A stretch of DNA of 54,682 nt from Clostridia bacterium (GTDB lineage Bacteria > Bacillota > Clostridia > Oscillospirales > CAG-272). Shown here piece by piece: positions 1 through 39,495 of this stretch (the first letter of the stretch is position 1; every line of letters starts with the position of its first letter). The notes below the pieces were generated by a model. That model was not told the origin of the DNA, made no database searches, and worked only from the letters and a program-made list of their open reading frames with translations. Made by a program: the position numbers and the translations under genes. The stretch is from assembly GCA_017398585.1 (NCBI GenBank), contig JAFQFS010000114.1, forward strand, positions 1-54,682, in the 5' to 3' direction.

Positions 1-40
1 GGGGTCCGGGGAGGTGCTTTTTTCAAAAAGCATCTCCCCG
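1..40 (+). repeat. Dispersed gene-end hairpin cassette, copy 1 (cut by window edge)
   Basis: The hairpin has arms at 8-22 and 25-39 (GGGGAGGTGC against GCATCTCCCC, one G-T pair). It is preceded by GGGGTCC, the end of the family's T-rich arm; the rest of that arm lies outside the window. It sits 15 bp beyond the argG stop codon with the hairpin nearest the stop, so it probably works as the argG terminator, although no clean T-tract follows on the minus strand. Confidence 0.75.
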
Positions 41-54
41 GTTATTTGATTCAA

Positions 55-1278
55 TTACTTGTCCCAGTTTGCTTCTGCCTGAGCCTTTACCTTGATCGGG
101 AGACCGAAGAGGTTGATGAAGCCGTTTGCATCCTTCTGGTTGTAGTCTTCGTCCACGCCGAAGGAAGCGGTCTGTTCGTTGTAGAGGGAGTACGGAGAGG
201 TTACGCCTGCGTTGATCATATTGCCCTTGTAGAGCTTGAGGGTAACGTCGCCGGTTACGTGCTTCTGGGTGTCGTCAACGAATGCACCGATGGATTCGCG
301 GAGGGGAGTGAACCACTGACCGTTATAGACGAGTTCGCCGAGCTTCTGTGCAACGATGGTCTTGAAGTGCATGGTTTCCTTGTCGAGGGTGATGGTTTCA
401 AGAACGTCGTGTGCCTTGTAAAGAATGGTGCCGGCGGGAGTTTCGTATACGCCGCGGCTCTTCATACCGACGAGACGGTTTTCAACGATGTCGAGGAGAC
501 CGATGCCGTTCGCGCCGCCGATCTTGTTCAGCGTGTCAACGAGGGTGATGCAGTCCATTTCTTCGCCGTTTACCGCGGTCGGGATACCCTTTTCGAAGTG
601 GATGGTAACGTAGGTGGGAGTATCGGGAGCCTGTTCGGGGGAAACGCTCAGTTCAAGGAAGCCCTTCTTGTTGTACTGCGGTTCGTTTGCGGGGCTTTCG
701 AGGTCGAGCCCTTCGTGGCTGAGATGCCAGAGGTTCTTGTCCTTGGAGTAGTTGGTTTCGCGGTTGATCTTGAGCGGGATGTTGTGTGCTTCCGCGTAGT
801 CGATTTCTTCGTCACGGGACTGGATATCCCAGATTCTCCACGGAGCGATGATGGTCATGTCGGGAGCGAATGCCTTGATGGTCAGTTCGAAACGTACCTG
901 GTCGTTGCCCTTGCCGGTACAGCCGTGGCAGATCGCGTCAGCGCCTTCCGCGAGAGCGATTTCAACGAGACGCTTTGCGATGCAGGGACGTGCATGGGAA
1001 GTGCCGAGGAGGTAGTCTTCGTACTTTGCGTCTGCCTTGAGGCAGGGCCAGATGTATTCTTCGATGTATTCCTTGCGGAGGTCTTCAATGTAGAGTTTGG
1101 AAGCACCGGTCTTCAGTGCCTTTTCTTCGAGACCTTCGAGTTCGTCTGCCTGACCGACGTTGCCGGAAACTGCGATGACTTCGCAGCCTTCGTAGTTTTC
1201 CTTCAGCCACGGAATAATGATGGAAGTATCAAGACCGCCGGAGTAAGCGAGAACGATTTTTTTGATTTCTTTTTTCAT
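55..1278 (-). CDS. argG: Argininosuccinate synthase
   Basis: The 407-residue product is the ATP-dependent cytosolic ligase that joins citrulline and aspartate in arginine biosynthesis. The PP-loop motif SGGLDTS is at residues 13-19, and the family signatures [13 protein letters not shown] and SRDEEIDYA are present. Length matches the family (about 400). The ATG follows the RBS AAGAAGGATAT. It stands alone, without argH next to it, transcribed divergently from the deacetylase genes, with a near-consensus promoter at 1340-1368 and possible ArgR boxes further upstream. Assignment is secure from sequence motifs. Confidence 0.97.
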
Positions 1279-1339
1279 TTCTATATCCTTCTTTAATGTT
1301 AATTTTTGTTTTTTGAGAGGTGTTTTTTATTGTGCACAT

Positions 1340-1368
1340 ATTATACCTCCCGGCTTGTGAAAAAGCAA
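1340..1368 (-). promoter_or_regulatory. argG promoter
   Basis: On the minus strand, TTGCTT (1363-1368) and TATAAT (1340-1345) are separated by 17 bp, about 60 bp upstream of the argG start codon. This is a good sigma-A type match. Confidence 0.7.
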
Positions 1369-1386
1369 TAGGCATCTTGACCAAAT

Positions 1387-1513
1387 CGGAATAAATATGC
1401 AAATAATATTTATAAAAATACACAATCTGACCGAATATATACAGGATTTATGCATGTTTTGCTCGATCTTCCGGACGTCTCCCCGGTATATTATTTGCAT
1501 AAAAGGCATAAAT
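1387..1513. promoter_or_regulatory. Candidate ArgR/AhrC boxes
   Basis: GGAATAAATATGCA (near 1388-1401) fits the ARG-box pattern TGAATAWWWATTCA with few mismatches. The octamer ATGCAAAT at 1397 recurs inverted at 1493-1500, inside a perfect 13-bp inverted repeat with 78 bp between arms. ArgR family hexamers bind paired boxes, so a pair flanking the divergent promoters of an arg gene is plausible. This is inference from pattern only. Confidence 0.4.
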
Positions 1514-1581
1514 TAACGCGTTTATCCGGAGAAATGACGGTTAGAATAAACAACGAATCACGGAAAGAAAGGAGATTCTAT

Positions 1582-2511
1582 ATGAAATTCACAAAGCATA
1601 CAGTTGCATTGCTGTTCGCCGGGCTGCTGCTCGGCGGTTCTGTGCTGACCGAACATGTTTCCGCAGCAGTGCCTGCCGGTCTGTTCGACTTGTTCAAAAA
1701 GGAAGAAACCGCTGAGACGGAACCGCTTCCCGAAGATATCACACCGAAGCGCGGGAAGAACAGTCCGTGCAGGAAGGAGGAAGACTGCACCGCAATGTCC
1801 ACGCATGCATCAAACTGGTACTGCAGGCATACGGAAAACGGAAAACGTCCGCCGATACCCGGCGAGATGACCTTCATTGACAAACACGGCGGCTATTTTC
1901 TTGGCGAAGACGACAAGGTGATCTACCTCACCTTCGATGCCGGTTATGAAAACGGCAACATTGCCCGCATTCTTGATACGCTGAAAGCGGAGGAAGTACC
2001 CGCGGCGTTCTTTGTCCTGGAAAATCTCGTTACCCGCAACACGGATCTGGTACGTCGGATGAACGACGAGGGACATCTGGTCTGCAACCACACGGCGAAG
2101 CACCCCGATATGACAGCGAAGTCCGAGTCGGAATTTGCTGATGAGCTTGCCGCGATGGAGAAGGTCTATAAAGATACGATGGGGACCGAGATCGCGAAGT
2201 ACTACCGTCCGCCGGAAGGAAAGTTCAACGAAGCTAACCTTGAATGGGCAAATTCTCTCGGTTACAAGACGATCTTCTGGAGCTATGCCTATGCCGACTG
2301 GGACAACGACAAACAGATGCCTGCGGACAAAGCCCTGCAGAAAGTGCTTGCAGGTACGCACAACGGCGAAGTGATCCTCCTGCATCCGACCTCTGCCACC
2401 AATGCGGACATCCTTCCCGGACTGATCCGTGAGTGGAAGAACATGGGCTACCGCTTCGGTACCCTCGATGAACTGACGGGAAACCGGGATCTCTCCAAAA
2501 ATCAGACGTAA
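1582..2511 (+). CDS. pdaA: PdaA-type polysaccharide deacetylase (spore cortex)
   Basis: The 309-residue protein starts at the ATG behind AAAGGAG; a longer frame upstream has no RBS. It has a signal peptide (residues 1-28) and a NodB deacetylase domain from about residue 112. Family motifs are TFDAGYENG (D119), HTAKH (H170, H174), RPPEGKF and LLH near 267. As in Bacillus PdaA (TFDNG), the second Asp of the usual TFDDG is missing, here replaced by Ala. PdaA deacetylates N-acetylmuramic acid, leading to muramic delta-lactam in the cortex peptidoglycan. A second deacetylase follows after 12 bp. Confidence 0.88.
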   Translation: MKFTKHTVALLFAGLLLGGSVLTEHVSAAVPAGLFDLFKKEETAETEPLPEDITPKRGKNSPCRKEEDCTAMSTHASNWYCRHTENGKRPPIPGEMTFIDKHGGYFLGEDDKVIYLTFDAGYENGNIARILDTLKAEEVPAAFFVLENLVTRNTDLVRRMNDEGHLVCNHTAKHPDMTAKSESEFADELAAMEKVYKDTMGTEIAKYYRPPEGKFNEANLEWANSLGYKTIFWSYAYADWDNDKQMPADKALQKVLAGTHNGEVILLHPTSATNADILPGLIREWKNMGYRFGTLDELTGNRDLSKNQT

Positions 2512-2523
2512 AGCTGTGGTGAA

Positions 2524-3210: not shown

Positions 3211-3252
3211 GAAAAACTGCCGTGATCTCCGGACGGAGAGCGGCAGTTTTTC
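3211..3252. terminator. Bidirectional intrinsic terminator
   Basis: A perfect 12-bp stem (3211-3222 with 3241-3252, GAAAAACTGCCG arm) with an inner TCTCC/GGAGA stem. A-rich and T-rich flanks allow function on both strands. It lies between the convergent deacetylase and DUF624 genes. Confidence 0.88.
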
Positions 3253-3272
3253 TGCAATATTTTTTTCGAAGA

Positions 3273-4370: not shown

Positions 4371-4408
4371 TTGAGTCACCTTTGCTTTGTATTTCCGTCT
4401 GGATGAAG

Positions 4409-4993: not shown

Positions 4994-5171
4994 GTTGCCT
5001 CCGTGCAGGACAGGATAGTTCATCCTATGCGGAAGCAGCCGTTACAATTCCATAAGTATAACGCAGTTTACCATAGCTTCTGTCAGAATACAATACATGA
5101 AATGTAAATTAAATTAAAAAATTGCCGGATATCACCGCAGACGGGAAATACCGCCGGGAAAACAAAAAAAC

Positions 5172-5213
5172 TTCCGGCAGGTTATTGAAAATCTGCCGGA
5201 AATCGCTTATAAT
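5172..5213 (+). promoter_or_regulatory. Acetyltransferase promoter with overlapping palindrome
   Basis: TTGAAA (5185-5190) and TATAAT (5208-5213) are 17 bp apart. A perfect inverted repeat TTCCGGCAG/CTGCCGGAA (5172-5180, 5193-5201) brackets the -35 box, so it could be an operator. Read on the minus strand the same stem is followed by seven T residues and could also be an intrinsic terminator. Confidence 0.65.
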
Positions 5214-6607: not shown

Positions 6608-6670
6608 GAAAGTTTTTGAAAAGGGGTTCGGGGGAAAACTTTTTCCAAAAAGTTTTCCCCCGAGAAACTT
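6608..6670 (+). repeat. Dispersed gene-end hairpin cassette, copy 2
   Basis: Full copy: AAGTTTTTGAAAAGGGG arm, then a hairpin with 17-bp potential (6628-6644 with 6647-6663; arm core GGGGGAAAAC). The outer bases AAGTTT (6610-6615) and AAACTT (6665-6670) are also complementary, closing the element. It abuts the stop codon of ychF (6669) and is the likely ychF terminator. Confidence 0.85.
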
Positions 6671-7763
6671 ATACATTAAATCTGAATAAAACCACGTCGC
6701 CGTCCTGCATGACGTATTCCTTGCCTTCGCTGCGTACCAGACCGCGTTCCTTTGCGACGGTCATGGAGCCGCATTCCATCAGGGCGTCGTATGCGACAAC
6801 TTCCGCACGGATGAAGCCGCGTTCGAAGTCGCTGTGGATCTTGCCGGCTGCCTGCGGTGCGCGGGTGCCGTTGACGATCGTCCATGCACGGACTTCCTTC
6901 GGACCGGCAGTCAGGTAGCTGATGTAGCCGAGCAGGGCGTAGCTTGCCTTGATGAGACGGTCGAGACCGCTTTCTTCGATGCCGAGGTCTGCAAGGAAGA
7001 CTTCCTTTTCTTCGGGATCGAGTTCCGCGATTTCCGCTTCGATGCCCGCGCAGACGGTGATGACTTCCGCGCCTTCTTCTTCCGCTGCCGCCTTGATGAC
7101 CTTGTACATTTCGTTGTCTTCGGAAACGCCTGCCGCTTCGTCTTCGCTGACGTTTGCAACGTAGATGATCGGCTTGAGGGTCAGAAGGTTCAGGTCTTCG
7201 AGGATCGCGCGTTCATCGTCGGTCAGGTCGCAGCTTCTTGCGGTCTTGCCTTCGTTCATGACGGCAAGGAGCTTGTTGTAAACGTCGATGGATTCCTGCA
7301 GAGTCTTGTCCCCCTTCAGGAGCTTCTGGGTGCGTTCGATGCGGCGTTCGAGCTGTTCAATGTCGGAGTAGATCAGTTCGAGGTTGATCGTTTCGAGGTC
7401 GCGGGACGGGTCAACGGAGCCGTCAACATGAATGATGTCGCCGTCTTCGAAGCAGCGGAGCACGTGAACAACCGCGTCAACGTCGCGGATGTGGGAGAGG
7501 AACTTGTTGCCGAGACCTTCGCCCTTGGACGCGCCGCGGACGAGCCCTGCGATGTCAACGAATTCAACGGTCGCCGGAGTATAAAGCTCCGGATGGTACA
7601 TTTCCGCCAGCTTGTCCAGACGGTAGTCCGGAACCTGTACGATGCCCACGTTCGGGTCGATGGTGCAGAAGGGGTAGTTCGCGCTCGGTGCGCCCGCACC
7701 GGTCAGCGCGTTGAACAGCGTGCTCTTGCCGACGTTCGGTAAACCAATGATGCCAAGTTTCAT
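6669..7763 (-). CDS. ychF: Redox-regulated ATPase/GTPase YchF
   Basis: The 364-residue protein is an Obg-family P-loop NTPase that binds ribosomes. The G1 loop GLPNVGKS is at residues 7-14, DIAGLV is the G3 motif, and a C-terminal TGS domain ends in [11 protein letters not shown]. The family prefers ATP because its G4 motif is altered; here the equivalent region reads YVANVSED. Length matches the family (363-366). It is monocistronic, with promoter TTGAAT-17-TATAAT upstream and a hairpin cassette at the stop codon. Confidence 0.97.
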
Positions 7764-14591: not shown

Positions 14592-14650
14592 CGAAAGTTT
14601 TTGAAAAGGGGTGTGGGGAAAAACTTTTTTCAAAAAGTTTTTCCCCACAT
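14592..14650 (+). repeat. Dispersed gene-end hairpin cassette, copy 3
   Basis: GAAAGTTTTTGAAAAGGGG arm followed by a 16-bp stem (14613-14628 with 14633-14648). It is the only copy followed by a long T-tract on the plus strand (ATTTTTTCTTTT). It sits between the convergent spoVAF homologue and ABC exporter genes, 11 bp beyond the latter's stop codon, and can serve both. Confidence 0.85.
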
Positions 14651-14661
14651 TTTTTCTTTTA

Positions 14662-16623
14662 TTAAGTTTCAATTCCGGCGAACTGGTTCTGGTACAGTCC
14701 GTAGTAGACGCCCTTCTGGGCGAGAAGTTCGTCGTGATTGCCGGCTTCCATGACGGTGCCGTCCTTCATTACGATGATGATGTCGGCGTCACGGATGGTC
14801 GAGAGGCGGTGCGCGATGATGAGGCTGGTGCGGTTCTTCATGAGAGCCACCATTGCCTGCTGGATGTGCATTTCGGTACGGGTGTCGACGGAGGAGGTTG
14901 CTTCGTCGAGGATGAGGATCTTCGGGTCGGCAAGAACAGCGCGTGCGATGGACAGAAGCTGTCTCTGACCCTGGCTCAGGTTGCTGCCGCCTTCCGCGAG
15001 GATCGTTTCATATTCTTCCGGCAGACGTTCGATGAAGTCGTCCGATTCTGCCATAGCTGCTGCACGGCGGATTTCTTCGTCCGTTGCGTCCAGGCGACCG
15101 TAGCGGATGTTGTTGCCGATGGTGTCGTGGAACAGGACGGTGTCCTGAAGAACGATCGCAATTGCACTGCGGAGGGTCTTCTTCGGGATATCGTTGATGT
15201 TTACGCCGTCGATTTTGATCTCGCCGGAGTCCACATCGTAGAATCTTGTCAGCAGATTGACGACGGTCGTCTTGCCGGAACCGGTTGCACCGACGAGGGC
15301 GATCTTCTGCCCCTGCTTTACCTTCAGGTTGAAGTTGTGCAGAACCTGCTTGCCGGGAATGTAGGAGAAGTTGATGTTGTTGAATTCAATATCCCCGCGG
15401 ATATCTTCTACCTTCATGTCGTCTGTGCCTTCGTCCAGTTCGTTCGGCGTGTCGAGAATTGTGAAGACGCGTTCCGCACCGGCGATCGCGGTCAGAATGC
15501 TTGCGTACTGGTTTGCGATCTGGTTGATCGGCATGGAGAGCTGACGGGAATACTGAAGGATCGCCTGAATGTCACCGACGGAGATCGCACCGGTTGCCGT
15601 GAAATACGCGCCGGTTGCCGCAACGATGAGGTAGTTCAGGTTGTTGATGATGTTGTTCGCGGGACCCATGAGACCGCCCCATACATTGGCACGAATGCTG
15701 CACTTTCGGAATTCTTCACTGATCTTTGCGAATTCCTCACAGGCGTCCTTTTCCTTTCCGTATGCGATAACGGTCTTGTAACCGGTGACCATTTCTTCCA
15801 CCTGTGCGTTCATCTGACCGAGAAGCACCTGTTTTTCCACGAAGTATTTCCGCATGAACTTCGACAGATTCATCGAAACGAGGAGGGTCAGCGGGATCGT
15901 GATGAGGGAGATAAACGCCATGCGCCAGTCGTAATAGAGCAGCATGGAGAACGCACCGATCAGGGTCAGCGCGGCGGAGATGAGCGAGGAGATGGAGGAG
16001 GACAACGTCATCGAGATGTTGTCGACGTCGTTCGTCATACGGCTCATGATGTCGCCGTGTGCGTGGGTATCCGTATAACCGATCGGGAGATAGGAAATCT
16101 TTTTGAACAGGTCGGAACGCATCGTGAAGACGGTCGTCTGCGTGATCTTCGCCGACGCAATGCCCTGAAGCATCTGGATTGCAGCACTTGCGAGGTAGAC
16201 GAGCATCATCATCACGAGGACGCGGATGAGCGTGTCAAAGTCAACGGACGCCTTGCCGGCGGTGATGGTGATCGCGTCGATCGCCTGCCCCTGAAGGCTC
16301 GGACCGAGGAGGTTCAGGAACGTCGACAGGATCGTCGTTCCCATGACGGTGAAGACGAGGTACTTGCTCTTGCCGATGTACTTGATCAGCTTGAGGAGTG
16401 TCCCTTTTGCGTCCTTGGGTTTTTCACGGATCATCGGGCCGCCGGGACCGCGTCCCTGATTGGTACCGTTTTTCTTCATGACGGCGCGGAGTTCATCCGC
16501 CGTCATTTCTTTTTTCTCACCCGGTTTTCCGGGACCTCCCGGCATCGGACCTTTTCCGGGCATTCCGGGACCGCCGGACGGCGGAGGCATCTGCTTGTTG
16601 TTCATTTTCGGGTCTCTGTTCAT
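14662..16623 (-). CDS. ABC exporter half-transporter, catalytic-site subunit
   Basis: The 653-residue half-transporter has a Pro/Gly/Met-rich N-terminal extension (about 60 residues) and six membrane segments. Its nucleotide-binding domain has Walker A GATGSGKTT, signature LSQGQRQLL, Walker B ILILDEATSSVD with catalytic Glu, and H-loop AHRLST. This full set matches the BmrD/TM288 side of heterodimeric multidrug exporters. Its ATG overlaps the stop of the partner gene (ATGA type), so the two are coupled. Regulated by the MarR gene at the head of the operon. Confidence 0.93.
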   Translation of the reverse strand: MNRDPKMNNKQMPPPSGGPGMPGKGPMPGGPGKPGEKKEMTADELRAVMKKNGTNQGRGPGGPMIREKPKDAKGTLLKLIKYIGKSKYLVFTVMGTTILSTFLNLLGPSLQGQAIDAITITAGKASVDFDTLIRVLVMMMLVYLASAAIQMLQGIASAKITQTTVFTMRSDLFKKISYLPIGYTDTHAHGDIMSRMTNDVDNISMTLSSSISSLISAALTLIGAFSMLLYYDWRMAFISLITIPLTLLVSMNLSKFMRKYFVEKQVLLGQMNAQVEEMVTGYKTVIAYGKEKDACEEFAKISEEFRKCSIRANVWGGLMGPANNIINNLNYLIVAATGAYFTATGAISVGDIQAILQYSRQLSMPINQIANQYASILTAIAGAERVFTILDTPNELDEGTDDMKVEDIRGDIEFNNINFSYIPGKQVLHNFNLKVKQGQKIALVGATGSGKTTVVNLLTRFYDVDSGEIKIDGVNINDIPKKTLRSAIAIVLQDTVLFHDTIGNNIRYGRLDATDEEIRRAAAMAESDDFIERLPEEYETILAEGGSNLSQGQRQLLSIARAVLADPKILILDEATSSVDTRTEMHIQQAMVALMKNRTSLIIAHRLSTIRDADIIIVMKDGTVMEAGNHDELLAQKGVYYGLYQNQFAGIET

Positions 16624-21165: not shown

Positions 21166-21693
21166 TTATCCTTCGACAATGGTGTATTCCCCCCTTACCA
21201 TAACGAAGACCGATTCGGAGTCTGCCATAATGCCGCGGCCATCTCCGCGCGGGATCAGACACATATGGTTCTTCGTGAGATATTGATAGTTGTAGATTTC
21301 AGTGCCGGATGTGTAATCGGCAATCCCCTGTGAGGCGTCGGGCGCAATGCAGTAGGCACTGCCGGCACGGAGCATGATGTCGCAGGCACCGGCGGCATAA
21401 AGGGAGTCTCCCCAGGAGAGTTCGATGACTTCATATGTAGAGGAAGCGGCCGGAGCCGGTTCTTCGTAAGAAGGCTGATACTGAGAAAGGTCGAGATTGT
21501 CCATTCTGCGGGCGATTTCGGATTCGATGGTGTCGTTCAGTTCCTCAAGAAGTTCGGTTTTGAAGATCTTGGTGAGGTAGGAGAGGGATACGAGCGGGTC
21601 TTCCGAGCTGTCGTAGGCCGCAGCCGCAGTCACGCCGAATGCTGCCATCGCCGCGAGGACAAGAGCGGTGATTTTGGTAAATTTGAGTTTCAA
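21166..21693 (-). CDS. Secreted protein of unknown function, partner of SpoIID-like protein
   Basis: The 175-residue protein starts at TTG, preceded by AGGCGG and placed so that a classical signal peptide results (KLKF, hydrophobic core, cleavage after AAAA near residue 26). A Ser/Pro-rich linker (about 75-88) leads to a C-terminal domain of about 85 residues with SWGDSLYAAGACDIMLRAGS and CLIPRGDGRG, a beta-rich pattern I do not recognise. It is first in a two-gene operon, one base ahead of the SpoIID-like gene, so it probably acts with it at the cell wall. Confidence 0.75.
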   Translation of the reverse strand: MKLKFTKITALVLAAMAAFGVTAAAAYDSSEDPLVSLSYLTKIFKTELLEELNDTIESEIARRMDNLDLSQYQPSYEEPAPAASSTYEVIELSWGDSLYAAGACDIMLRAGSAYCIAPDASQGIADYTSGTEIYNYQYLTKNHMCLIPRGDGRGIMADSESVFVMVRGEYTIVEG

Positions 21694-21760: not shown

Positions 21761-21796
21761 GGGGAATCCGGTGAGTTCAGGGAAATCAATTTTTGC

Positions 21797-21858
21797 GGGG
21801 GAAAAACTTTTTGAAAAAAGTTTTTCCCCCACACCCCCATTTCAAAAACTTTCAAACA
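21797..21858 (-). repeat. Dispersed gene-end hairpin cassette, copy 4 (reversed)
   Basis: A 16-bp stem (21797-21812 with 21815-21830, GGGGGAAAAAC arm) is followed by CCCCATTTCAAAAACTTTC, the complement of the T-rich arm. It is the only copy in this orientation and does not follow the end of any plus-strand gene. Confidence 0.85.
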
Positions 21859-21928
21859 AAATAAATATGTGAGGTACAGTGCATATCTATAATAAATACA
21901 TGCACGGTTTGTTGCTTTTTGTCTGCTT

Positions 21929-21985
21929 AAAGGTTTTTCGGAGGGGTTCGGGGAACCCTTTTTCCTTAAAAAAGGGTTCCCCGGG
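21929..21985 (+). repeat. Dispersed gene-end hairpin cassette, copy 5
   Basis: AAAGGTTTTTCGGAGGGG arm, then a 15-bp stem (21949-21963 with 21969-21983, CGGGGAACCC arm) with loop CCTTA. It is about 70 bp past the topoisomerase stop codon and the hairpin faces that gene. Paired changes in the stem (AACCC/GGGTT) keep the pairing, which suggests the structure is selected. Confidence 0.82.
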
Positions 21986-22053
21986 AAAATTTGATTTCTC
22001 CGGATGAAAGCCGGAAAAATGCGGATTCATGCGGAAACTACTTCTGAAAAGCG

Positions 22054-24255
22054 TCAGATAAGTGTGTTGATCGTGATGCCGGTTGCGGGGATCTTGTGTT
22101 TCCGGCACTTTGCCGCTTTTTCCATATCGATGTCCGTACCCGACTGAACCGACGTGATGATCATGCCGTCCTTCATCGTGAAGAGGATGGAGCCGGCAGA
22201 GGTACGGGTTGTTTTCTGTGGGATGAGAGAGGAATTGATGAGGATCGCCTTGCCCATATTGTTCTCGATCAGGATGTCCATTGGTTCATGCTCGTACAGC
22301 ACTGCCGCGATCGGGGAGGCATCCGAGAAAGCGCCGGTGAGCCGGCGGCGGTTGGTCTTCGTCTCGTAAGCGGATGCGGGGATTTTTACCCCCTTGCCGT
22401 TTTCGAAAAGGAAGATGAAATTGTCATCCGGATCGTATTCTGTGATTGCTTTCATCATGACCGGACGCTCGTTTTCTTCAAATCCGAGTTTTGCCGCGAT
22501 GAAGTCGCCGAGGGCGGACGCCTTGACGGGATCAATATCGGCTGCCTTGCACTTGTACGCCTGGGCACGGTCAGTGAAGAAAATCAGTTCGGCACGGTTT
22601 TCCGTTTCCTCCGAGGCGATGATCTCGTCGCCGTCCTTCATTTTCTGCTCGTCCGCGCGCATCAGAGACTGACGGGTGATCTTTTTGAAGTATCCTTCCT
22701 TCGTAAGAACAACGAAGATCGGGTAATTTTCGACTTCTTCTTCCCCGGAATCTTCCTCAAGGTCATCCGTTGTGATAAGCTGTGTTTTGCGCGGTTTTCC
22801 GTACTTTTTCTTGATGGCTGCAAGCTGTTTTGCGATGACTGCTTTTACCTTGATGTCGTCCGCGATAATGTCCTCGAGTTCGGCGATCTCCTTCTGCAGA
22901 TCTTCGATCTCGCGGATGCGCTCGAGAATGTATTCGCGGTTCAGATGGCGCAGTTTGATTTCAGCGATGTATTCCGCTTGAATTGCATCGATCTCAAAGC
23001 CTTCCATGAGACGCGGCACAACGTCGGATTCCTTTTCGGTTTCACGGACGATCTTCACCGCTTTGTCGATGTCGATCAGAATTTTTCCGAGACCGCGCAG
23101 CAGGTGGAGCTTGTCCTTCTTTTTCTCAAGTTCGTGCGTCAGTTCACGGCGTACACAGCCGAGACGGAATTTGATCCACTCGATCAGAATGTCGCGAACG
23201 CCGAGCTGGAACGGGCGTCCCTCGATCAGTACCGTGAAGTTGCAGGAGAAGCTGTCCTCGAGCGTGGTCATGCGGTACAGCTTGTTCATCAGCGCATCCG
23301 CATCTGTGCCGCGCTTGATGTCGAGCGTCAGCTTGAAGCCGGACAGGTCGATCTCGTCGCGGACGTCGGAAATTTCCTTGAACTTTCCTTCTTTAATGAG
23401 AGTGACGATCTTCTTGATGATCAGATCGCTCGATGTTGAATACGGGATCTGTGTGATCTCGATGAGTCCTTTGCTCTTGTCGTAATTATAGCGTGCCCGC
23501 ATCTTGAAGCTGCCCGAACCGGTTTCGTAAATCTGCTTCATCTGAGCACGGTCGTAGATCAGATTCGCGCCGCCGGGAAAATCGGGAGCCTTGATGAGTT
23601 CGAGCAGTTTGTCGGTGGTCGTGTTTGGATTTTTTAGAAGAGCGATTGTTCCGTCGCAGATCTCCGCGAGGTTGAACGAACAGATCTGCGAGGACAGTCC
23701 AACCGCGATACCCATGTTCGGGCAGACGAGGATGTTCGGGAACGACGTCGGCAGAAGGGAGGGTTCAAGCATGGTGTTGTCGTAGTTCGGTACCATGTCG
23801 ACCGCATCCTTGTCGATGCCGCCGAACAGCTCCGCACAGATGGGTTCAAGCTTGACTTCGGTGTAACGGGCAGCAGCAGCCTCGTCGCTGCTGTAATGCT
23901 TGCCGAAGCTTCCCTTGGAGTCGATGAACGGGTGGAGCAGAGCTTCATGGTCACGCGTCAGACGAACCATGGTATCATAGATCGCCGCGTCGCCGTGCGG
24001 GTTGAGACGCATGGTCTGACCGACGACGTTCGCACTTTTGGTACGTCCGCCGTTCATCAGCCCCATCTTGTACATCGTGTACAGCAGTTTCCGGTGCGAC
24101 GGCTTGAAACCGTCGATTTCCGGGATGGCGCGCGACACGATCACGCTCATCGCGTACGGCATGTAGTTGGTTTCAATGGTATCGGTAATAATCTGGTCTT
24201 TGATATCCGCAATTTTCGTAACTTCAGGTTTCGTTTCTGTCTTTTTTCTAGGCAT
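22054..24255 (-). CDS. parC: Type IIA DNA topoisomerase subunit A (topoisomerase IV-like)
   Basis: The 733-residue protein is the DNA-cleaving subunit of a gyrase/topoisomerase IV enzyme. The winged-helix catalytic core carries KPSHRKLLYTMYKMG, the region GDAAIYDTMVRLT and active-site Tyr131 in AAARYTEVKLEP. A coiled-coil follows (about 365-470), then a beta-pinwheel C-terminal domain without a recognisable GyrA box, so relaxation or decatenation is more likely than supercoiling. The length is shorter than GyrA (about 830). No gyrB/parE gene is adjacent; upstream is a mannosidase gene. It may be a third, non-canonical topoisomerase of Clostridia. Confidence 0.88.
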   Translation of the reverse strand: MPRKKTETKPEVTKIADIKDQIITDTIETNYMPYAMSVIVSRAIPEIDGFKPSHRKLLYTMYKMGLMNGGRTKSANVVGQTMRLNPHGDAAIYDTMVRLTRDHEALLHPFIDSKGSFGKHYSSDEAAAARYTEVKLEPICAELFGGIDKDAVDMVPNYDNTMLEPSLLPTSFPNILVCPNMGIAVGLSSQICSFNLAEICDGTIALLKNPNTTTDKLLELIKAPDFPGGANLIYDRAQMKQIYETGSGSFKMRARYNYDKSKGLIEITQIPYSTSSDLIIKKIVTLIKEGKFKEISDVRDEIDLSGFKLTLDIKRGTDADALMNKLYRMTTLEDSFSCNFTVLIEGRPFQLGVRDILIEWIKFRLGCVRRELTHELEKKKDKLHLLRGLGKILIDIDKAVKIVRETEKESDVVPRLMEGFEIDAIQAEYIAEIKLRHLNREYILERIREIEDLQKEIAELEDIIADDIKVKAVIAKQLAAIKKKYGKPRKTQLITTDDLEEDSGEEEVENYPIFVVLTKEGYFKKITRQSLMRADEQKMKDGDEIIASEETENRAELIFFTDRAQAYKCKAADIDPVKASALGDFIAAKLGFEENERPVMMKAITEYDPDDNFIFLFENGKGVKIPASAYETKTNRRRLTGAFSDASPIAAVLYEHEPMDILIENNMGKAILINSSLIPQKTTRTSAGSILFTMKDGMIITSVQSGTDIDMEKAAKCRKHKIPATGITINTLI

Positions 24256-24350: not shown

Positions 24351-24413
24351 TTTCAAGTTTTTTGGATGGGGTTTGGGGAAACCTTTTTCGAAAAAAAGGT
24401 TTCCCCAAAAAAC
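24351..24413 (+). repeat. Dispersed gene-end hairpin cassette, copy 6
   Basis: TTTCAAGTTTTTTGGATGGGG arm, then a 17-bp stem (24372-24388 with 24393-24409, TTTGGGGAAACC arm) with loop CGAA. It ends about 10 bp from the GH125 stop codon and separates it from the topoisomerase gene. Confidence 0.83.
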
Positions 24414-24419
24414 TCCATT

Positions 24420-25697
24420 TTATCTGTTTACAACGTGGATGACAAATTCGGCGAAGATGGAATTCGCCCATGCGAACCATACTCTTGTGAACTTGTCGGG
24501 ATTATCGACGTGGAAGCCTTCGTGCATGAGACCGGTGCCCGCCGTGGTGGTTTCGAACAGGTCGAGGATGGCATTGATTTCATCTTCGCTGGTGGAGGTC
24601 AGACCCTGCATTGCAAGGGAAACATGCCAGATGTAGTTCTTCGGGGTGTGCGGGCTGCCGATTCCCTTTGCCGCAGTACCTTCGTAGTAATAGGGGTTGT
24701 TCTTCGAAAGGATGAATCGGCGGGTGTTCTGATAGATCTCGTCATCTTCGCCGCAGTAGCCGAGGTAAGGCAGGGAGAGCAGGCTCGGAACGTTTGCGTC
24801 GTCCATGAAGTTCTGGTTGCCGAGACCGTCCGCTTCGTAGGCATAGATGGTGCCGAATTCGGGATGGTCGAACGTACCGTACTTCTTGATGCCGGCGTCG
24901 ATTTCGTCACGCAGCTTGAACGCACGGTTCTTCATTGCGGTATCGTGCCATACCTTTTCCGCGATTTCCGCCATGTAGCCGAGGATCACAACGGCGAACA
25001 TTTCGGACGGGATCAGATAGTGGTATTCACACGCGTCGTCGCTGGGACGGAAGCCGCTCCAGGTCATGCCGGTGTAGGCAACGGGGGTACCCATGCCGTC
25101 GCACTTGAGCGTGTCGCTCGGCGGGCAGTTCGTACGGGTAAAGCGGTACGGGGACTTTTCCGCGTGATACTGTTCGGTTTCGAAGGTGTCGAGGATCTTC
25201 AGGCATGCCTGCTTGAAGGTGTCGTCGAGGTGTTCGGTCGAGCCGGACGCCTTCATGAAGTGGTACGCGAGATTGACGGGATAGCAGAGGGAGTCGACTT
25301 CGTACTTGCGTTCCCATGCCATCGGGTTATCGAATTCGGTGGTGTCGGCGTAGTGACCGCCTTCCTTCTTGGTCTGGTTGAATGCGTTTGCATAGGGGTC
25401 GTCGAGGATGCAGTAAGCCTGACGCTTCACGAGGCTTGCAACGAGGGAACGGATCGCGCTGTCACCTGCGGTGAGGTTGAGGTAGTGGCGGACCTGCGCA
25501 GAGGAGTCGCGGAGCCACATCGCGGGGATATCGCCGGTGATGACGAACGCGCCGTTGTCGTCGAGCTTGACAGTGGTTTCGATGGTGTTGAGGTAGGTTG
25601 CCTTGAACATATCAGCGATGACGGGTCTGCCCATAGCGGTCAGACGCTTCTGAACGTCGGCAACGTATGCTCTCATAGTGTTGGTAACAAGTTCCAT
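24420..25697 (-). CDS. GH125 exo-alpha-1,6-mannosidase
   Basis: The 425-residue protein matches glycoside hydrolase family 125 (formerly DUF1237), an inverting, metal-independent exo-alpha-1,6-mannosidase with an (alpha/alpha)6 barrel. Key phrases are GDIPAMWLRDSSAQVRHY at about 55-71, NCPPSDT, MTWSGFRPSDDACEYHYLIPSEMF, FAYEADGLGNQNFMDDANVPSLL-type acidic loop and MHEGFHVDNP near the C-terminus. There is no signal peptide, so it is cytosolic. It lies 18 bp after the sua5 gene in what looks like one operon with prfA, an unexpected setting for a glycosidase. Confidence 0.93.
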   Translation of the reverse strand: MELVTNTMRAYVADVQKRLTAMGRPVIADMFKATYLNTIETTVKLDDNGAFVITGDIPAMWLRDSSAQVRHYLNLTAGDSAIRSLVASLVKRQAYCILDDPYANAFNQTKKEGGHYADTTEFDNPMAWERKYEVDSLCYPVNLAYHFMKASGSTEHLDDTFKQACLKILDTFETEQYHAEKSPYRFTRTNCPPSDTLKCDGMGTPVAYTGMTWSGFRPSDDACEYHYLIPSEMFAVVILGYMAEIAEKVWHDTAMKNRAFKLRDEIDAGIKKYGTFDHPEFGTIYAYEADGLGNQNFMDDANVPSLLSLPYLGYCGEDDEIYQNTRRFILSKNNPYYYEGTAAKGIGSPHTPKNYIWHVSLAMQGLTSTSEDEINAILDLFETTTAGTGLMHEGFHVDNPDKFTRVWFAWANSIFAEFVIHVVNR

Positions 25698-28528: not shown

Positions 28529-28625
28529 ATCAAAAACCCCCTCACAAAAAACGATAATTCCGGCATGACAACATCCACACCGGAAAACAATAAATTCAAA
28601 TAAAACCAAATCCCTTTCCCAGATG

Positions 28626-28688
28626 GAAGCTTTTTGAAAGGGGTTCGGGGAAAACTTTTTCTCGAAAAAGTTTTCCCCGAGAAACCTT
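28626..28688 (+). repeat. Dispersed gene-end hairpin cassette, copy 7
   Basis: GAAGCTTTTTGAAAGGGG arm, then a 16-bp stem (28645-28660 with 28665-28680, TCGGGGAAAAC arm) with loop CTCG. It ends 3 bp from the M18 peptidase stop codon. Confidence 0.86.
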
Positions 28689-28690: not shown

Positions 28691-30103
28691 TTACTTACAG
28701 AAAGCAGCAAATGCGAGGTGTGCTTCGTAGAGGTCGGACTTGGAGATGCATTCGAAGGGAGCGTGCATGGAGAGAACCGGAACGCCGATGTCGACGGTGT
28801 CGATGTTCTGGTTGGAGATGTACTTCGCAACCGTGCCGCCGCCGCCCTGGTCAACCTTACCGAGTTCTGCGGTCTGCCAGATAACGCCTGCATCGTCGAA
28901 GATCTTGCGTACGAACGCAACGTATTCCGCGGAGGTGTCATTGGTGCCGCCCTTACCGCCGGAACCGGTGTACTTGGAGAGACCTACGCCGCAGTGGAGG
29001 AGAGAGGAGTTGCGTCTTTCGAATACTTCCGCGTAGTTCGGATCGTAGCATGCCGTAACGTCTGCGGAGAGGCACTTGGAATTCATGCGAACCACGTTGG
29101 CATTGCCGCCGAGATTGGAAGCGAGCTCGGAGATGAGGTCAACGAGCAGGCAGCACTGCATACCGGAAACACCGTCGGAGCCGGTTTCTTCCTTGTCGGC
29201 GAGAACTGCGATATTGGTGTGAACGGAATCCTTGGTTTCAACGAGAGCGGTGAGCGCCGGGTAGGAGCATACGCGGTCGTCGTGACCGTATGCGCCGATG
29301 AGCCAGCGGTCAAGGCCGACGTCAACGGAATTCTGTGCGGGAACGATGGAGAGTTCCGCGCTCATGAAGTCGGATTCGGTGATGCCGTACTTTTCGTAGA
29401 GCATGATCATGACATTCAGCTTGGTCTTTTCGTCTGCGGGGGTAACCTTGCCGTCTTCTTCGATGTAGGGAGAAGTAGCCATCACGATGTTCAGACCTTC
29501 GCCGGTGAATGCGGAGCCGAGAGGACGGCCGTTCTGGTCCTTGGCGAGGTGCGGAAGAAGGTCGGTGATGCAGAATACGGGATCGCCCGCTTCGTCGCCG
29601 ATGCGTACGTTGACGGTCGTACCGTCTGCCTTGGTTACTACACCATGGAGTGCGAGCGGGATGGTCGCCCACTGATACTTGCGGATGCCGCCGTAGTAAT
29701 GGGTCTTGAAATAGCCGAAACCGTCGTTTTCGTACAGCGGATGCTGCTTGAGGTCGATGCGGGGAGCGTCGATGTGAGCCGCGCAGATGCGTACGCCGTT
29801 TTCGATCGGTTCGGAACCGACGTGGATGACGAACAGGTTCTTGCCGCGGTTGTTCAGGTAAACGTTGTCGCCTGCAGTGAGCGCTTCGCCGAGCTTGTAT
29901 TCGCGGAAGCCTGCCTTTTCGAGCATCGCGATGGAAGCGGTGACCGCTTCACGTTCGGTCTTGGATTCGTCGAGCCATGCTGCATAATCTGCCGCGTATG
30001 CCTTCGCCTTTGCGAGGTCTTCCGCAGACTTCAGTTCAAATGCGCTCTTCTTCTTGTAGAACAGTTCTTCCTTGAGAAGCTGACCCTTGGTCTTGTCACT
30101 CAT
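28691..30103 (-). CDS. M18-family metalloaminopeptidase
   Basis: The 470-residue cytosolic zinc peptidase starts at the ATG 11 bases after AAAGGA; an ATG 18 bp upstream overlaps that RBS. It belongs to the aspartyl aminopeptidase/aminopeptidase I (M18) family: AAHIDAPRIDLK holds the first metal His/Asp, ADKEETGSDGVSG the catalytic Glu pair, and SADVTACYDPNY and VPVLSMHAPFECIS the last metal His. M18 enzymes form dodecamers and trim acidic or neutral N-terminal residues. Downstream of coaE and the transglycosylase gene on the same strand, with a 55-bp gap. Confidence 0.93.
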   Translation of the reverse strand: MSDKTKGQLLKEELFYKKKSAFELKSAEDLAKAKAYAADYAAWLDESKTEREAVTASIAMLEKAGFREYKLGEALTAGDNVYLNNRGKNLFVIHVGSEPIENGVRICAAHIDAPRIDLKQHPLYENDGFGYFKTHYYGGIRKYQWATIPLALHGVVTKADGTTVNVRIGDEAGDPVFCITDLLPHLAKDQNGRPLGSAFTGEGLNIVMATSPYIEEDGKVTPADEKTKLNVMIMLYEKYGITESDFMSAELSIVPAQNSVDVGLDRWLIGAYGHDDRVCSYPALTALVETKDSVHTNIAVLADKEETGSDGVSGMQCCLLVDLISELASNLGGNANVVRMNSKCLSADVTACYDPNYAEVFERRNSSLLHCGVGLSKYTGSGGKGGTNDTSAEYVAFVRKIFDDAGVIWQTAELGKVDQGGGGTVAKYISNQNIDTVDIGVPVLSMHAPFECISKSDLYEAHLAFAAFCK

Positions 30104-34909: not shown

Positions 34910-34938
34910 GGTTATACCTCCGTTTTATGAAGATGGGG

Positions 34939-36477: not shown

Positions 36478-36504
36478 AGGGAAATGCCTTTCCGGAATAC
36501 CTGA

Positions 36505-37221
36505 TTACAGTACGGGACGGCGGATGTAGGTCACGCGGCGGCTCTGCATCTCGCCCGGCTCCTGAATCTGGATATCGAGGGAATCCGTTGTGAGCAGATA
36601 GTCACGCAGTTCCTTCGTATTTCCGATGGAATCGGGGAGGTATGCGCCGCAGTGAGGACGGTGCGTGTCAGCGTGGAAGTCCCCGCCGGAGGTCAGGATC
36701 CGTCCCGCACTCTGTGCGATTTTCGTCAGTTTGTCCACATGGGTTGCATCGTACAGCGGATGGCTGTTTGCCTCCACGCCATCGAGGTATGCGAGATCCT
36801 GCAGGAGATCTCTGCCGTTCCGGAACGGATGAGCCTGTACAAGCATACCTCCGTGGGATTTGACGAGCGCATACAGTTCCGACAGGGGCATGGCGTAAAC
36901 TTCCGGATATGCCAGCGTGAACGCGGGATCCACGCCGTATACGAGGATGTGTGCGCCGGAATGCTGTTCCATCGTGACTTCCATCCCGTAAAATACCTTG
37001 AATCCGGCGGCATCGCCGCATTCCTTGGTGTAGTAATATTCCGCTGTGTAGCGTTCCGCGAAGCCGAGGGCGTCGCCGTTTTTAACGTAGGAGCGCTGAT
37101 AGTGGTTGCTCAGGACGATCCCGTCGATGCCGGCACCCTGTGCGGCTTTGATGATCTCCGGTGCGGGAACTCTGCAGCAGGTGCTGATCCCTGAAGTATG
37201 TGCGTGCAGGTCGATTAACAT
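36505..37221 (-). CDS. PHP-domain metal-dependent phosphoesterase
   Basis: The 238-residue protein has the PHP fold: DLHAHTSG at 3-10, LSNHYQR at about 37, YGMEVTME, QAHPFRNG (His ligand), EANSHP and SGGDFHADTHRPHC at about 185. These supply the histidines and acids of a trinuclear metal site. PHP proteins hydrolyse phosphoesters such as histidinol phosphate, but the substrate is unknown here. It lies between two clan GH-D-like glycosidase genes, 27-52 bp from each, so it may process a phosphorylated sugar from them. Confidence 0.85.
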   Translation of the reverse strand: MLIDLHAHTSGISTCCRVPAPEIIKAAQGAGIDGIVLSNHYQRSYVKNGDALGFAERYTAEYYYTKECGDAAGFKVFYGMEVTMEQHSGAHILVYGVDPAFTLAYPEVYAMPLSELYALVKSHGGMLVQAHPFRNGRDLLQDLAYLDGVEANSHPLYDATHVDKLTKIAQSAGRILTSGGDFHADTHRPHCGAYLPDSIGNTKELRDYLLTTDSLDIQIQEPGEMQSRRVTYIRRPVL

Positions 37222-37272
37222 GATGATCCCTTCTTTGTTTATGTGATTTAATGAGATTTTTATTTCCGGATG

Positions 37273-39324
37273 TCAGCGGATCGTGTACCAGATGAAATCG
37301 TTCGCAGGGATGGTGACCGTCAGCGATACGGTGTAGTCTCTGGCAAGATCGTACGCGGCGGGTTCGCCGTCGTGAAGGGCGAAGAATGCTTTGTCCGTCA
37401 GACCGGTGTAGTACAGCGGCACACGGATCGTGCGGGTGATCGGTTCGTCCAGCGGATTGAAGAGAACGAGCATGCCTTTTTCCTCCAGAGCCGGATTGAC
37501 ATGGACATACCCGTCGAAATCGCGTCCGTCCGCGCGGCGGATCTTTACGGCAGGGCTTTCCAGAATTGCGCGGTGCTTCTTGTAGACCGCGACGCTGTCC
37601 CGCACCATTTCCTTTGTTTCTTCCGTATCGTACAGACGGTGACCGCGGTACGCCGCCTGTACACCGGCAAGAAGATTATTGTTCAGCATCATCCGGTAGT
37701 GATCGAGGTGTTCGCAGAGCGGCTCGATCGTTGCCGCCGCACCGCCGCCGTGATACTGCGTCAGCGGGACGAACATCCACCCCATCGACGGCAGCTTGTC
37801 GTATGTTCCGTCGTGGATATTCTGACGTGCGAGGATGACCTGCTGTTCGCGCGGAAGAGACCAGTTGACTTCCTTGTAGCCCATACCGCATTTGCTGTTG
37901 CCGGAGAGGTAGTACCGGTCGGGGACGTTCAGATATACACCGTTTTCCTTGCACCAGCCGTACAGTTCCGAGATCGCCGTGAGCTGTGTGTACTGCGAAT
38001 CTTCGTAACATTCATGACCGGGGTGCTTTTCCGAGCGGCAGGTGTCGCCGGGATAGGAGCCGTCGTGTTCGAGTACGTCAAATCCGGTTTCGCGGAGGAA
38101 CGTACGGATGTTTGCGAGGTAATTCTGTCCCCATTCGCTGCCGAGACAGGGCGAATTTCCGAAAATGACCGAGTCGGCAATAACGTCGTTTTCCTTGTTG
38201 ATGGAGCGGGAGGCGAGAAGGGAATATCCGCCGATCTCGATGCCGCGGGAATGGGCGTAATCGGCGATCTTTTTGAACTTCGCGATGTTTTCCGGAGACG
38301 CATTCTCCATGTTCAGTCCGCTGCCGAACGAGAGAATCAGCATTTCGAACCCGACTTCGACACACTGGTCGATGCAGGCTTTCAGTTTGTCGTAATCGGT
38401 GGAGATGATGTGGACGAAAATCGGGTTTTCCGTTGTCCACGGCGCGAGCGTCTGATAGAACCGTGCGGCCTGGAGCATACGGCGTGTCCGGTCATTCTCG
38501 TCAAACAGCATCAGGTGCGCGGTGTAGGACGTGAATTCTTCGCCGTCTTTCAGTTTCTTGTAAGGACCGAGCGGCGGCTTTGATACGAGCAGGATCGGAT
38601 ACTGACAGCGGAAATCGACCTGCGAGGTGTATTCGGGATCCAGCGTATAGGAGAACGTCGGTGTCAGAGTGTTTTCAATGCTCGAGACATAGAAAATATT
38701 CCGCGACTGTTCGGCGATCCGGCGCACTTCGTTGTTGGCGGAATCGTGTTCGGTGATGGCGAGGATCTCCGCTTCAAATTCATTCAGGCGGATGTCATGT
38801 CCGCTGCGGTTGACAATGGTGAACGATTTCCCGAAGGCGGGCAGATCATCGTAGCATTCGTGACGGACTGTCACTTCGATCCCTGCGAGTTCCGGCTTAT
38901 CCGAAGCAAACGTCACTTCCAGACAGATGCCCTTCGGCGGCCATACATCTGCGGCTGCATGACGGCGGCGCTTCCATGTGATATTGCGGGTGATCGGAAC
39001 GACGCGGTGGCTGCGGTAATTGAAGCCATCGGCGGGAGTGAATTTTTTGTACCACGAAGGCTTCATGAAGCCGTGTTCAAACTGGCCGGATACCCCGCCG
39101 ACCGGGTATTTTGTCCCATCCACCGTGATGGTGACTTCCGGCTTGACTGAGCGCAGGAACTGTTCGCCGGAGTACAGATTCTTCAGTCCGACGCAGGCGA
39201 AATCCGGTGTCAGCAGAAAGCGCCGTTCGGCGATGCCGTTGGTGAGAACGATCTCGCCGTTTTTCTCGTAGATACATGCGGGATACGACGCGGGAGAGGT
39301 CAGATAATCGTTGATGTAGAACAT
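37273..39324 (-). CDS. Clan GH-D-like alpha-glycosidase of uncertain family
   Basis: The 683-residue intracellular protein has an N-terminal beta-sandwich (about 1-290), a TIM barrel and a C-terminal beta-domain typical of alpha-galactosidase-like enzymes. The probable nucleophile is the Asp of VLEHDGSYPGD. Nearby HPGHECYEDSQ, DRYYLSGNSKCGMGYKEVNW and PLTQYHGGGAAATIEP are further likely active-site segments. I cannot place it in a numbered GH family. The RBS sits in the loop of a hairpin that includes the start codon. First gene of the GH-D/PHP/GH-D unit. Confidence 0.7.
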   Translation of the reverse strand: MFYINDYLTSPASYPACIYEKNGEIVLTNGIAERRFLLTPDFACVGLKNLYSGEQFLRSVKPEVTITVDGTKYPVGGVSGQFEHGFMKPSWYKKFTPADGFNYRSHRVVPITRNITWKRRRHAAADVWPPKGICLEVTFASDKPELAGIEVTVRHECYDDLPAFGKSFTIVNRSGHDIRLNEFEAEILAITEHDSANNEVRRIAEQSRNIFYVSSIENTLTPTFSYTLDPEYTSQVDFRCQYPILLVSKPPLGPYKKLKDGEEFTSYTAHLMLFDENDRTRRMLQAARFYQTLAPWTTENPIFVHIISTDYDKLKACIDQCVEVGFEMLILSFGSGLNMENASPENIAKFKKIADYAHSRGIEIGGYSLLASRSINKENDVIADSVIFGNSPCLGSEWGQNYLANIRTFLRETGFDVLEHDGSYPGDTCRSEKHPGHECYEDSQYTQLTAISELYGWCKENGVYLNVPDRYYLSGNSKCGMGYKEVNWSLPREQQVILARQNIHDGTYDKLPSMGWMFVPLTQYHGGGAAATIEPLCEHLDHYRMMLNNNLLAGVQAAYRGHRLYDTEETKEMVRDSVAVYKKHRAILESPAVKIRRADGRDFDGYVHVNPALEEKGMLVLFNPLDEPITRTIRVPLYYTGLTDKAFFALHDGEPAAYDLARDYTVSLTVTIPANDFIWYTIR

Positions 39325-39340
39325 ACAGAACCTCCTGTAT
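39322..39340 (-). promoter_or_regulatory. Start-codon hairpin with RBS in the loop
   Basis: On the minus strand ATACAG-GAGGTT-CTGTAT: a 6-bp stem (39323-39328 with 39335-39340) presents GGAGG partly in the loop and pairs two bases of the ATG. A further inverted repeat GATACACT/AGTGTATC (39357-39364, 39387-39394) lies upstream and could be an operator. Confidence 0.5.
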
Positions 39341-39412
39341 ATAATTCAATGCTAATGATACACTTTGAAATTTACTGGAAATATGCAGTGTATCTTGTCA
39401 TTATAACAGATT

Positions 39413-39495
39413 GAAGCTTTTTGAAAAGGGTTCGGACGAGTCTGCTTCGCAGTCTCAGAAACTTTTTCTCGAAAAAGTTTTTCCCGAGAAACTTT
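39413..39495 (+). repeat. Dispersed gene-end hairpin cassette, copy 8 (with insertion)
   Basis: GAAGCTTTTTGAAAAGGG arm, TTCGG, then about 22 extra bases with a small CTGC/GCAG hairpin interrupt the left arm, followed by the AAACTTTTT/AAAAAGTTT stem (39459-39467 with 39472-39480) and CCCGAGAAACTT. TTCGG can still pair with CCCGA across the insertion. It ends about 7 bp from the URO-D gene's stop codon. Confidence 0.8.

Follow-up and report, generated by a model that had tools for sequence, protein, structure and literature searches.

The contig JAFQFS010000114.1 of a gut-type Clostridia bacterium (54,682 nucleotides, hereafter the window) carries eight copies of a palindromic cassette, most of them at gene ends. 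We found that these copies belong to a large repeat family of the source genome, and that the complete unit of this family is a pair of cassettes with the arms facing inward, spanning ~190-280 bp, as formed by copies 4 and 5 of the window. Each half is composed of a hairpin (mostly 13-15 bp), a 3-nt linker and an arm. What is new here is the relation between these parts. After the 3-base linker, the arm repeats the stem in mirror order and one base shorter, C standing wherever the 3' strand of the stem has G. The polarity is that the hairpin lies against the coding sequence and the arm points outward. We have very high confidence that the repeat family and its stem-arm rule are real. The rule hints at a three-stranded DNA structure that may be kept by selection. 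On balance we lean, by a little, toward a lineage-specific dispersed palindromic repeat whose arm would form an intrastrand triplex and which would be retained at gene boundaries; our confidence in a role as a gene-boundary or 3'-end element is lower.

The stem-arm rule

A covariance model was built from copies 2, 3, 6 and 7 of the window (Table 1), which is contig C111 of the source genome, from base 1. The model search of this genome (G000; 3.18 Mb in 178 contigs, 74% complete) gave at least 150 matches, all of those listed with E < 1e-15. A profile made from the top matches was then used to count copies in G000 and in its closest genus-mate (G004; topoisomerase 90% and YchF 97% identical). 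Completeness of the two genomes is 70-74%, which limits negative results from either. The profile found 219 copies in 855 kb of G000, 327 in 1.224 Mb of it, and 156 in 0.753 Mb of G004; the last two samples make up the set of 483 cassettes analyzed here. A parser that admitted only linkers of 2-4 nt resolved 351 of the 483 into hairpin, linker and arm, and cassettes with an extra hairpin in the linker were among those dropped. Of the parsed copies, 349 had arms long enough for scoring, 338 had a core and 314 had tract lengths. The exact 17-base arm occurred 66 times in G000, and its reversed control was absent.

On the hairpin-first strand, the arm read 5' to 3' mirrors the 3' strand of the stem read upward from its base, T, C and A being repeated unchanged and G being replaced by C. 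The linker was 3 nt long in 328 of the 351 parsed copies. With one skip allowed, the rule matched 12.49 of 13 positions over 349 cassettes, compared with 10.90 ± 0.05 for permuted arms, and 218 cassettes were perfect, compared with a permuted mean of 58 (maximum 78). The strict rule was obeyed by 272 of 338 copies versus 49 (maximum 69) after permutation, with 171/206 on the stop side of genes and 62/80 on the start side. Counting only the 120 distinct stem/arm combinations preserved the excess (11.9 versus 10.16 ± 0.11). At least one fitting arm was found for 23 of the 26 commonest stem types, and the mutual information was highest on the mirror diagonal or one off. When stem types one base apart were compared, 48 of 80 pairs showed a change of the typical arm at the corresponding position. 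The commonest arms by stem were CCCCTTTTC for CCCCTTTTTG, CCCCTTTC for CCCCTTTTG, CCCCTTCC for CCCCTTTGG and CCCCATCTTC for CCCCTTCTTTG.

The lengths followed the same pattern. The stem tract exceeded the arm tract by exactly one base in 291 of 314 copies, over tracts of 5 to 10, and the G-run and C-run lengths agreed in 298 of 314 (198, 99 and 1). The place of the skipped base is not fixed; single-base runs mask it, and it need not be the junction. Other relations performed worse, namely a pure mirror without the G-to-C substitution (11.12/13) and a simple complement (1.63/13). The loop was linked to the distal end of the arm among the parsed copies of both genomes, CGAG occurring with GCTT in 26 of 26 and GAGG or AAGG with CCTT in 72 of 72. 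By inspection of the listed sequences, Watson-Crick pairing between the arm and the hairpin apex left the GG/CC link and the one-base difference in length unexplained.

A scan independent of the model found 175 sites with a hairpin and a coded arm in G000, as opposed to 2 with shuffled flanks and 0 with shifted ones, and 124 in G004 (0 and 0). Samples of 40-103 kb from five other genomes (G008, G017, G016, G007 and G023) yielded 0-1 such sites at a score of at least 9.

Several controls addressed common descent. Within the three main arm/loop subfamilies, the cassettes still exceeded permuted arms (12.42 versus 10.93, 12.85 versus 12.01, and 12.59 versus 11.21). Diverged copies were scored at the top matches of the model, which itself includes the arm, in G008 (13 of 15 loci scored), G017 (13 of 14) and RGIG7288 (7 of 9). 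The G017 copies, with longer stems, reached 11.31 versus 8.54 ± 0.55 with arms swapped (13 copies, one misparsed). The G008 copies gave a less strong difference (10.62 versus 9.57 ± 0.41; 13 copies).

Among 235 orthologous genes of G000 and G004, the cassette was present at 82 gene ends in the former, at 45 in the latter and at 39 in both. In many of these orthologous pairs the stem, loop and arm differed while the non-coding flank was plainly homologous. A first parse of the shared ends was poor (30 of 39 parsed; own stem better in 28, other stem better in 10, ties in 14), and core strings were used instead. By this means 22 of the 39 ends were parsed, 15 had differing stems and 14 of these had a complete arm. 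Of the 28 arms at those 14 ends, 26 agreed with their own stem and 4 with the stem of the other species. Such differences arose either by compensatory change of all three parts in place or by the exchange of entire coded cassettes between loci.

Inverted pairs and placement at gene ends

The original prediction had named eight copies in the window, and all were found at their positions (Table 1). Its placement of six of them just past minus-strand stops was also borne out, with stop-to-stem distances of 14, 6, 14, 12, 11 and 15 bp for copies 1, 2, 3, 6, 7 and 8; the gene of copy 1 encodes argininosuccinate synthase (55-1278). The seventh, expected about 70 bp past a topoisomerase stop, is copy 5, which lies 70 bp past a topoisomerase IV/gyrase A-type gene (22054-24255). 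Copy 4 has its hairpin toward the 5' end of a gene, not toward a stop. Compared with shuffled sequence, folding on the gene strand was better for seven of the eight copies (z -2.9 to -6.2) and no better for copy 8 (z -0.7), in which an additional small hairpin, GAGACTGCGAAGCAGACTC, sits at the base of the stem, ahead of the arm. Copies 4 and 5 together folded as a hairpin, a central stem and a hairpin (z -7). Rfam gave no match at the gathering score across the window, and between 6500 and 29000 only sub-threshold matches, mostly to microRNA families. At the G004 ortholog of the gene next to copy 2, a cassette with an extra linker hairpin occupies the same stop, and at the ortholog of copy 7 the stem and the arm are both altered in step.

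Table 1. Cassettes of the window and the complete unit formed by two of them
Feature	Position	Strand	Context and sequence features
Copy 1	1..47	-	Stem 6-41 and first Cs of the arm; arm truncated by the contig end
Copy 2	6608..6669	-	Stop side of YchF-type GTPase gene (6669-7763); linker GAA, arm CCCCTTTTCAAAAACTTTC
Copy 3	14593..14654	-	Stop side of ABC transporter gene (called 14662-16605); inner motif GACAGAGTTTGTGC after the arm
Copies 4 and 5, complete unit	21790..21990	.	Arms inward, 74 bp between
Copy 4	21790..21853	+	Unit half; 103 bp from the start of gene 21166-21693
Copy 5	21928..21990	-	Stop-side unit half; stem variant GGGGAACCC
Copy 6	24353..24414	-	Stop side of GH125 gene (24420-25697); stem GGGGAAACC, arm CCCCATCC
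Copy 7	28625..28686	-	Stop side of M18 aminopeptidase gene (called 28691-30103); loop CGAG, arm end GCTT
Copy 8	39412..39493	-	Stop side of URO-D family gene (called 39502-40617)

Inverted pairing was common in both genomes. An arms-inward partner within 200 bp was present for 126 of 327 cassettes in G000 and 36 of 156 in G004, where random intergenic placement gave 38 ± 11 and 15 ± 5. Pairs with the hairpins inward were seen in neither genome, and a single same-orientation pair occurred, in G000. The gaps between partners clustered near 74 and 112 bp. In G000, 43 long gaps held a conserved dyad, roughly GACAAAGt.aGTGCAGATTtG ... AAATCTGCACttACTtTGTC, with a best 30-nt end match of 18.5 versus 14.3 for shuffled sequence, a control that covered the long gaps. 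A GTGC(A/G) motif 8-50 nt past the arm accompanied 104 of 126 paired cassettes in G000, 70 of 193 solitary ones and 112 of 1897 random intergenic spots. One long unit folded as a hairpin, a long central stem and a hairpin (z -11). Mean bit scores of paired and solitary cassettes were 50.2 versus 49.5 in G000 and 51.5 versus 47.7 in G004. A separate class bears one or two small hairpins between the main stem and the arm, such as GACTTGTTCCGCAAGTCG. Examples are window positions 39412-39493, L038:11150 and L060:6852, as well as members of orthologous pairs, and at several gene ends only one of the two species has the small hairpins.

Gene ends were taken from our own gene calls (1007 genes in the larger set). 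In G000, 195 of 327 cassettes lay at stops, 86 at starts and 46 elsewhere; in G004 the figures were 90 of 156, 27 and 39. The earlier claim that the hairpin always faces a stop thus described seven of the eight window copies, but failed as a general statement, since 86 of 327 in G000 face starts. Enrichment within 20 bp of stop codons, proposed at the outset as a check, was strong. Among the 127 stop-side hairpins of G000 in gaps of at least 150 bp, 107 began within this distance versus 14 expected (maximum 28), as did 41 of 59 in G004 versus 5.5 expected. Start-side enrichment was weaker (22/67 versus 7.1, maximum 17, in G000; 11/47 versus 3.7, maximum 10, in G004). The stem began 6-17 nt behind the stop in 152 of 204 cases in G000. 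Where a hairpin lay within 40 nt of a start in that genome (74 starts), it was found at 9-17 nt in 31 and at 27-39 nt in 34.

Starts with a cassette within 20 bp had a Shine-Dalgarno-like motif in only 4 of 37 cases in G000 and 0 of 13 in G004. Where the cassette lay at 21-60 bp, the motif was present in 36 of 49 starts in G000 and 12 of 14 in G004, and cassette-free starts had it in 642 of 904 and 388 of 563 cases, respectively. Genes whose start lies within 20 nt behind a hairpin, a group in which the motif is nearly always lacking, include L047:8792, L044:2641, L048:7146 and L066:16230. Judging by their first residues, in our own reading, some of the genes concerned are presumably essential (FabD, TsaD).

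Dispersal and relation to terminators

Extrapolation from the samples, some contigs of which were picked from match lists, gives ~800-850 cassettes per genome. The model search of relatives gave at least one match in 18 of 30 genomes, G000 included. Matches per genome were at least 150 in G000 and in G004, 98 in G008, 68 in G017 and 0 to 15 in the others; those in G008 and G017 were mostly weak, and the 40-103 kb samples of the five genomes named above gave 3. At least 150 matches were obtained from Clostridia bacterium RGIG7288 (water buffalo caecum). A SpoIID/LytB-domain protein suggests that the host is of Firmicutes type. At least 9 of 29 sampled contig starts of G000, that of the window included, begin within a cassette, so the repeat seems to break assembly. 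In the G004 stretches L157, L138 and L135, a different palindromic repeat family, with ends such as AACGTGAGTTCGATGG and the inner sequence GTAGGGAGCGGCGCC, occupies gaps where G000 has cassettes. Several phage-type contigs (L260, L272, L279, L282 and others) contain look-alike combinations of arm and hairpin, mostly with imperfect stems and a code that is partly obeyed.

The occupancy of equivalent sites varied between the two genomes. At 152 conserved neighboring gene pairs, a cassette was found in neither genome in 103, in both in 28, in G000 only in 18 and in G004 only in 3, and full-pair, half and empty states occurred at the same sites. Inspection by eye of 16 genus-mates, those in which the 3' end of the orthologous topoisomerase gene was viewed, showed no unit like that of copies 4 and 5 behind this gene. 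The original interpretation was supported in part, namely as to a dispersed unit like a miniature inverted-repeat transposable element (MITE); it had not foreseen that cassettes also abut starts, that the full unit is an inverted pair or that the arm is coded.

These patterns, together with the inverted pairs at clustered spacings and the range from 0 to at least 150 matches among genus-mates, would be accounted for by a selfish REPIN- or MITE-like repeat and nothing more. Its arm and stem would bind a transposase, founder subfamilies would link their variation, and purging elsewhere would produce the placement. Yet no Y1 domain (PF01797, RAYT) was matched in G000 or G004, genomes only 70-74% complete, and DDE_3 (PF13358) had no match in G000 and two in G004. 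RAYT and IS630 transposases were thus unsupported as drivers, and no mobilizing transposase was identified in searches that covered Y1 and DDE_3 only. With regard to MITEs of the IS630/Tc1 type, TA-like ends were seen, with a suggestive flank consensus and no clean empty site with a duplication. A purely selfish repeat also fits poorly with a stop proximity that stays tight in gaps of at least 150 bp and with a rule that persists within subfamilies, and neither protein binding nor founder effects predict the one-base shortening over tracts of 5 to 10. We consider it unlikely as a full account.

The relation to transcription terminators was examined at the same gene ends. As the original prediction had noted for most window copies, a T-tract on the gene strand was lacking: in all 351 parsed copies, no more than 2 of the 8 nt that follow the stem on the hairpin-first strand were T. 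Copies 1 and 3 matched a terminator-like pattern on the plus strand, opposite their gene, and the family-wide count covers the hairpin-first strand only. Where gaps were at least 60 bp, T-tailed terminators occurred at 31 of 258 gene ends with a stop-side cassette versus 170 of 617 without. The difference was found at convergent ends (14/86 versus 60/172) and at co-directional ones (17/172 versus 110/445). Ordinary terminators were thus about half as common at cassette ends, which fits some role in 3'-end formation. The depletion fits partial replacement and is not proof of it.

Another reading would make the cassette a terminator that is specific to the species, has a conserved consensus and may act in both directions. 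The 6-17-nt stem position behind stops, the terminator depletion and the plus-strand pattern of copies 1 and 3 speak for it. The absence of a U-tract from the hairpin-first strand of every parsed copy does not, and neither do the copies that face starts or the 31 cassette-bearing ends that also carry an ordinary terminator. It leaves the mirror arm unexplained as well, and we regard it as quite improbable.

A putative triplex and comparison with known repeats

Intrastrand triplexes are built from a hairpin with a mirror repeat next to it. The cassettes share the layout of such motifs, three blocks with short loops, at the level of sequence. On the arm-first strand the layout is 5'-TTTTTGAAAAGGGG-TTC-GGGGAAAACTTTTT-loop-AAAAAGTTTTCCCC. 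The arm, shorter by one base than the purine tract opposite, has the form required if it were to fold back into the major groove and switch purine strands. As a rule, G of the arm stands over G-C pairs of both orientations, A or in some cases T over A-T, and T over T-A. These triads are standard for a third strand that is antiparallel to one purine tract and then switches strand. The triple helix would form in single-stranded or supercoiled DNA, and its formation may be the reason the rule is kept. Mutation or template switching can homogenize inverted repeats, not mirror repeats, so selection on structure would be the simplest account. At stop codons the element may be retained as a boundary or 3'-end element able to replace an ordinary terminator. 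A third strand that crosses from one purine strand to the other has been proposed for a synthetic DNA-peptide system, according to the accessible part of that report (PMC3660596).

A more specific proposal casts a natural alternate-strand triplex, upheld by three-way covariation across hundreds of copies per genome, as a gene-boundary device. Behind stops, the form on the template strand would halt or terminate transcription without a U-tract, and a pair would seal the intergenic region from both sides against read-through. We think this version unlikely. An RNA triple helix at mRNA 3' ends is another possibility, in which an arm CCCCUUU would lie in the major groove of the stem GGGGAAAA (C+.G-C and U.A-U) and protect the end. 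The stem-proximal arm on the hairpin-first strand has the canonical pyrimidine motif, and stops hold 195/327 and 90/156 of the copies. Against an RNA helix, the distal arm (A over T-A, C over C-G) is non-canonical on that strand, and start-side copies obey the rule about as often as stop-side ones (62/80 versus 171/206). It is quite improbable in our judgment.

No description of this repeat family was found in the open-licence publications searched. Its nearest known counterparts, as far as the accessible texts go, are the intrastrand-triplex motifs (PMC4666352) and the REPINs (PMC3116915). The enterobacterial TM_ECO/PIT motif (Holder et al. 2015, PMC4666352), as described in the accessible part of that report, likewise combines a short-loop hairpin with a 3-nt second loop and a third block that corresponds to the G-rich strand. 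It is also intergenic, sometimes occurs as an inverted pair, and differs sharply in copy number between close relatives. As its pattern reads there, it has 9-nt G/C-rich blocks, no strand switch and no specific distance to genes. In the cassettes, unlike TM_ECO, the arm lies 5' of the G-rich strand, faces ~13 pairs, switches strand, falls one base short and covaries with the stem, and the elements abut stops and starts. The TM_ECO consensus CCCTCNCCC-N3-6-GGGNGAGGG-N3-GGGNGAGGG was not matched by eye, as order, composition and length differ.

A number of observations weigh against the triplex reading. Of 100 distinct core pairs only 49 obeyed the strict rule, most of those that did not being rare, and four stem types fitted seldom or never (CCCCTCCACG in 0/4, CCCCCTTAG in 0/3, CCCCTTTTAG in 0/2 and CCCCTCCCTG in 1/7). 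Between stem types one base apart, the arm was unchanged in 20 of 80 pairs and changed only elsewhere in 12. Seven orthologous ends shared the same stem core, yet the arms differed in 4, and where stems were mismatched the arm followed the 5' strand in 17 cases and the 3' strand in 14, with 15 ties. Whole-cassette exchange between loci would inflate the counts. In RGIG7288 the 7 scored copies only equaled the best of 40 arm swaps (11.29 versus 11.29). A wider pattern scan of viral contigs gave 25 stretches, 22 of them distinct, of which only 3 passed the strict hairpin test, and the signal of the arm code there was not significant (P = 0.33). The link between loop and arm end is not needed by a triplex with the stem alone and can be explained by common descent of subfamilies, and a role at 3' ends alone would not account for the start-side copies. 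The accessible text on TM_ECO adds that the triplex formed in vitro, that double-stranded DNA gave no triplex signals, that in vivo dimethyl sulfate footprinting found no blocked guanines, and that an earlier study had found no promoter or terminator activity (PMC4666352).

The cassettes also form inverted doublets of the REP/REPIN type at typical spacing. REPINs, in the portion of Bertels and Rainey 2011 available to us (PMC3116915), are inverted doublet units with singlets beside doublets and with compensatory changes, as are the cassettes. The spacings are 71 and 110 bp there, measured differently, and ~74 and 112 bp here. The RAYT link described in the same text has no counterpart in the Y1 searches of G000 and G004. 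REPIN doublets are further described there as random over extragenic space and better conserved than singlets, whereas the scores of paired and solitary cassettes are close. A GTAG or CGTC tag at the base of the palindrome is a further trait described for REP sequences.

Other short repeats bear a more general resemblance. RUP and BOX are likewise short palindromic elements near genes. Correia/NEMIS elements are also short palindromic elements near genes, and similar-looking repeats occur in other anaerobes. Unlike small bacterial MITEs, the cassettes carry triplex-coded arms; no clean target-site duplication was seen for them, and the Y1 and DDE_3 searches identified no partner transposase. 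They resemble Rho-independent terminators in the hairpin just past the stop codon, and differ from them in that stop-side copies have no T-tract on the gene strand and that cassettes also precede starts.

Selection for intrastrand triplexes in vivo is an open question, and the TM_ECO data, in the accessible text, do not support a stable triplex in vivo or a role in expression (PMC4666352). In the cassettes, the arm follows the stem across about twenty stem types, at orthologous loci and beyond a single species, and the rule that it follows includes a strand-switch substitution and a one-base shortening. Such covariation is the kind of evidence that established RNA helices. It makes selection for a triplex directly testable, and it provides a search rule (hairpin, 3-nt linker, coded arm) that can be applied to other genomes.

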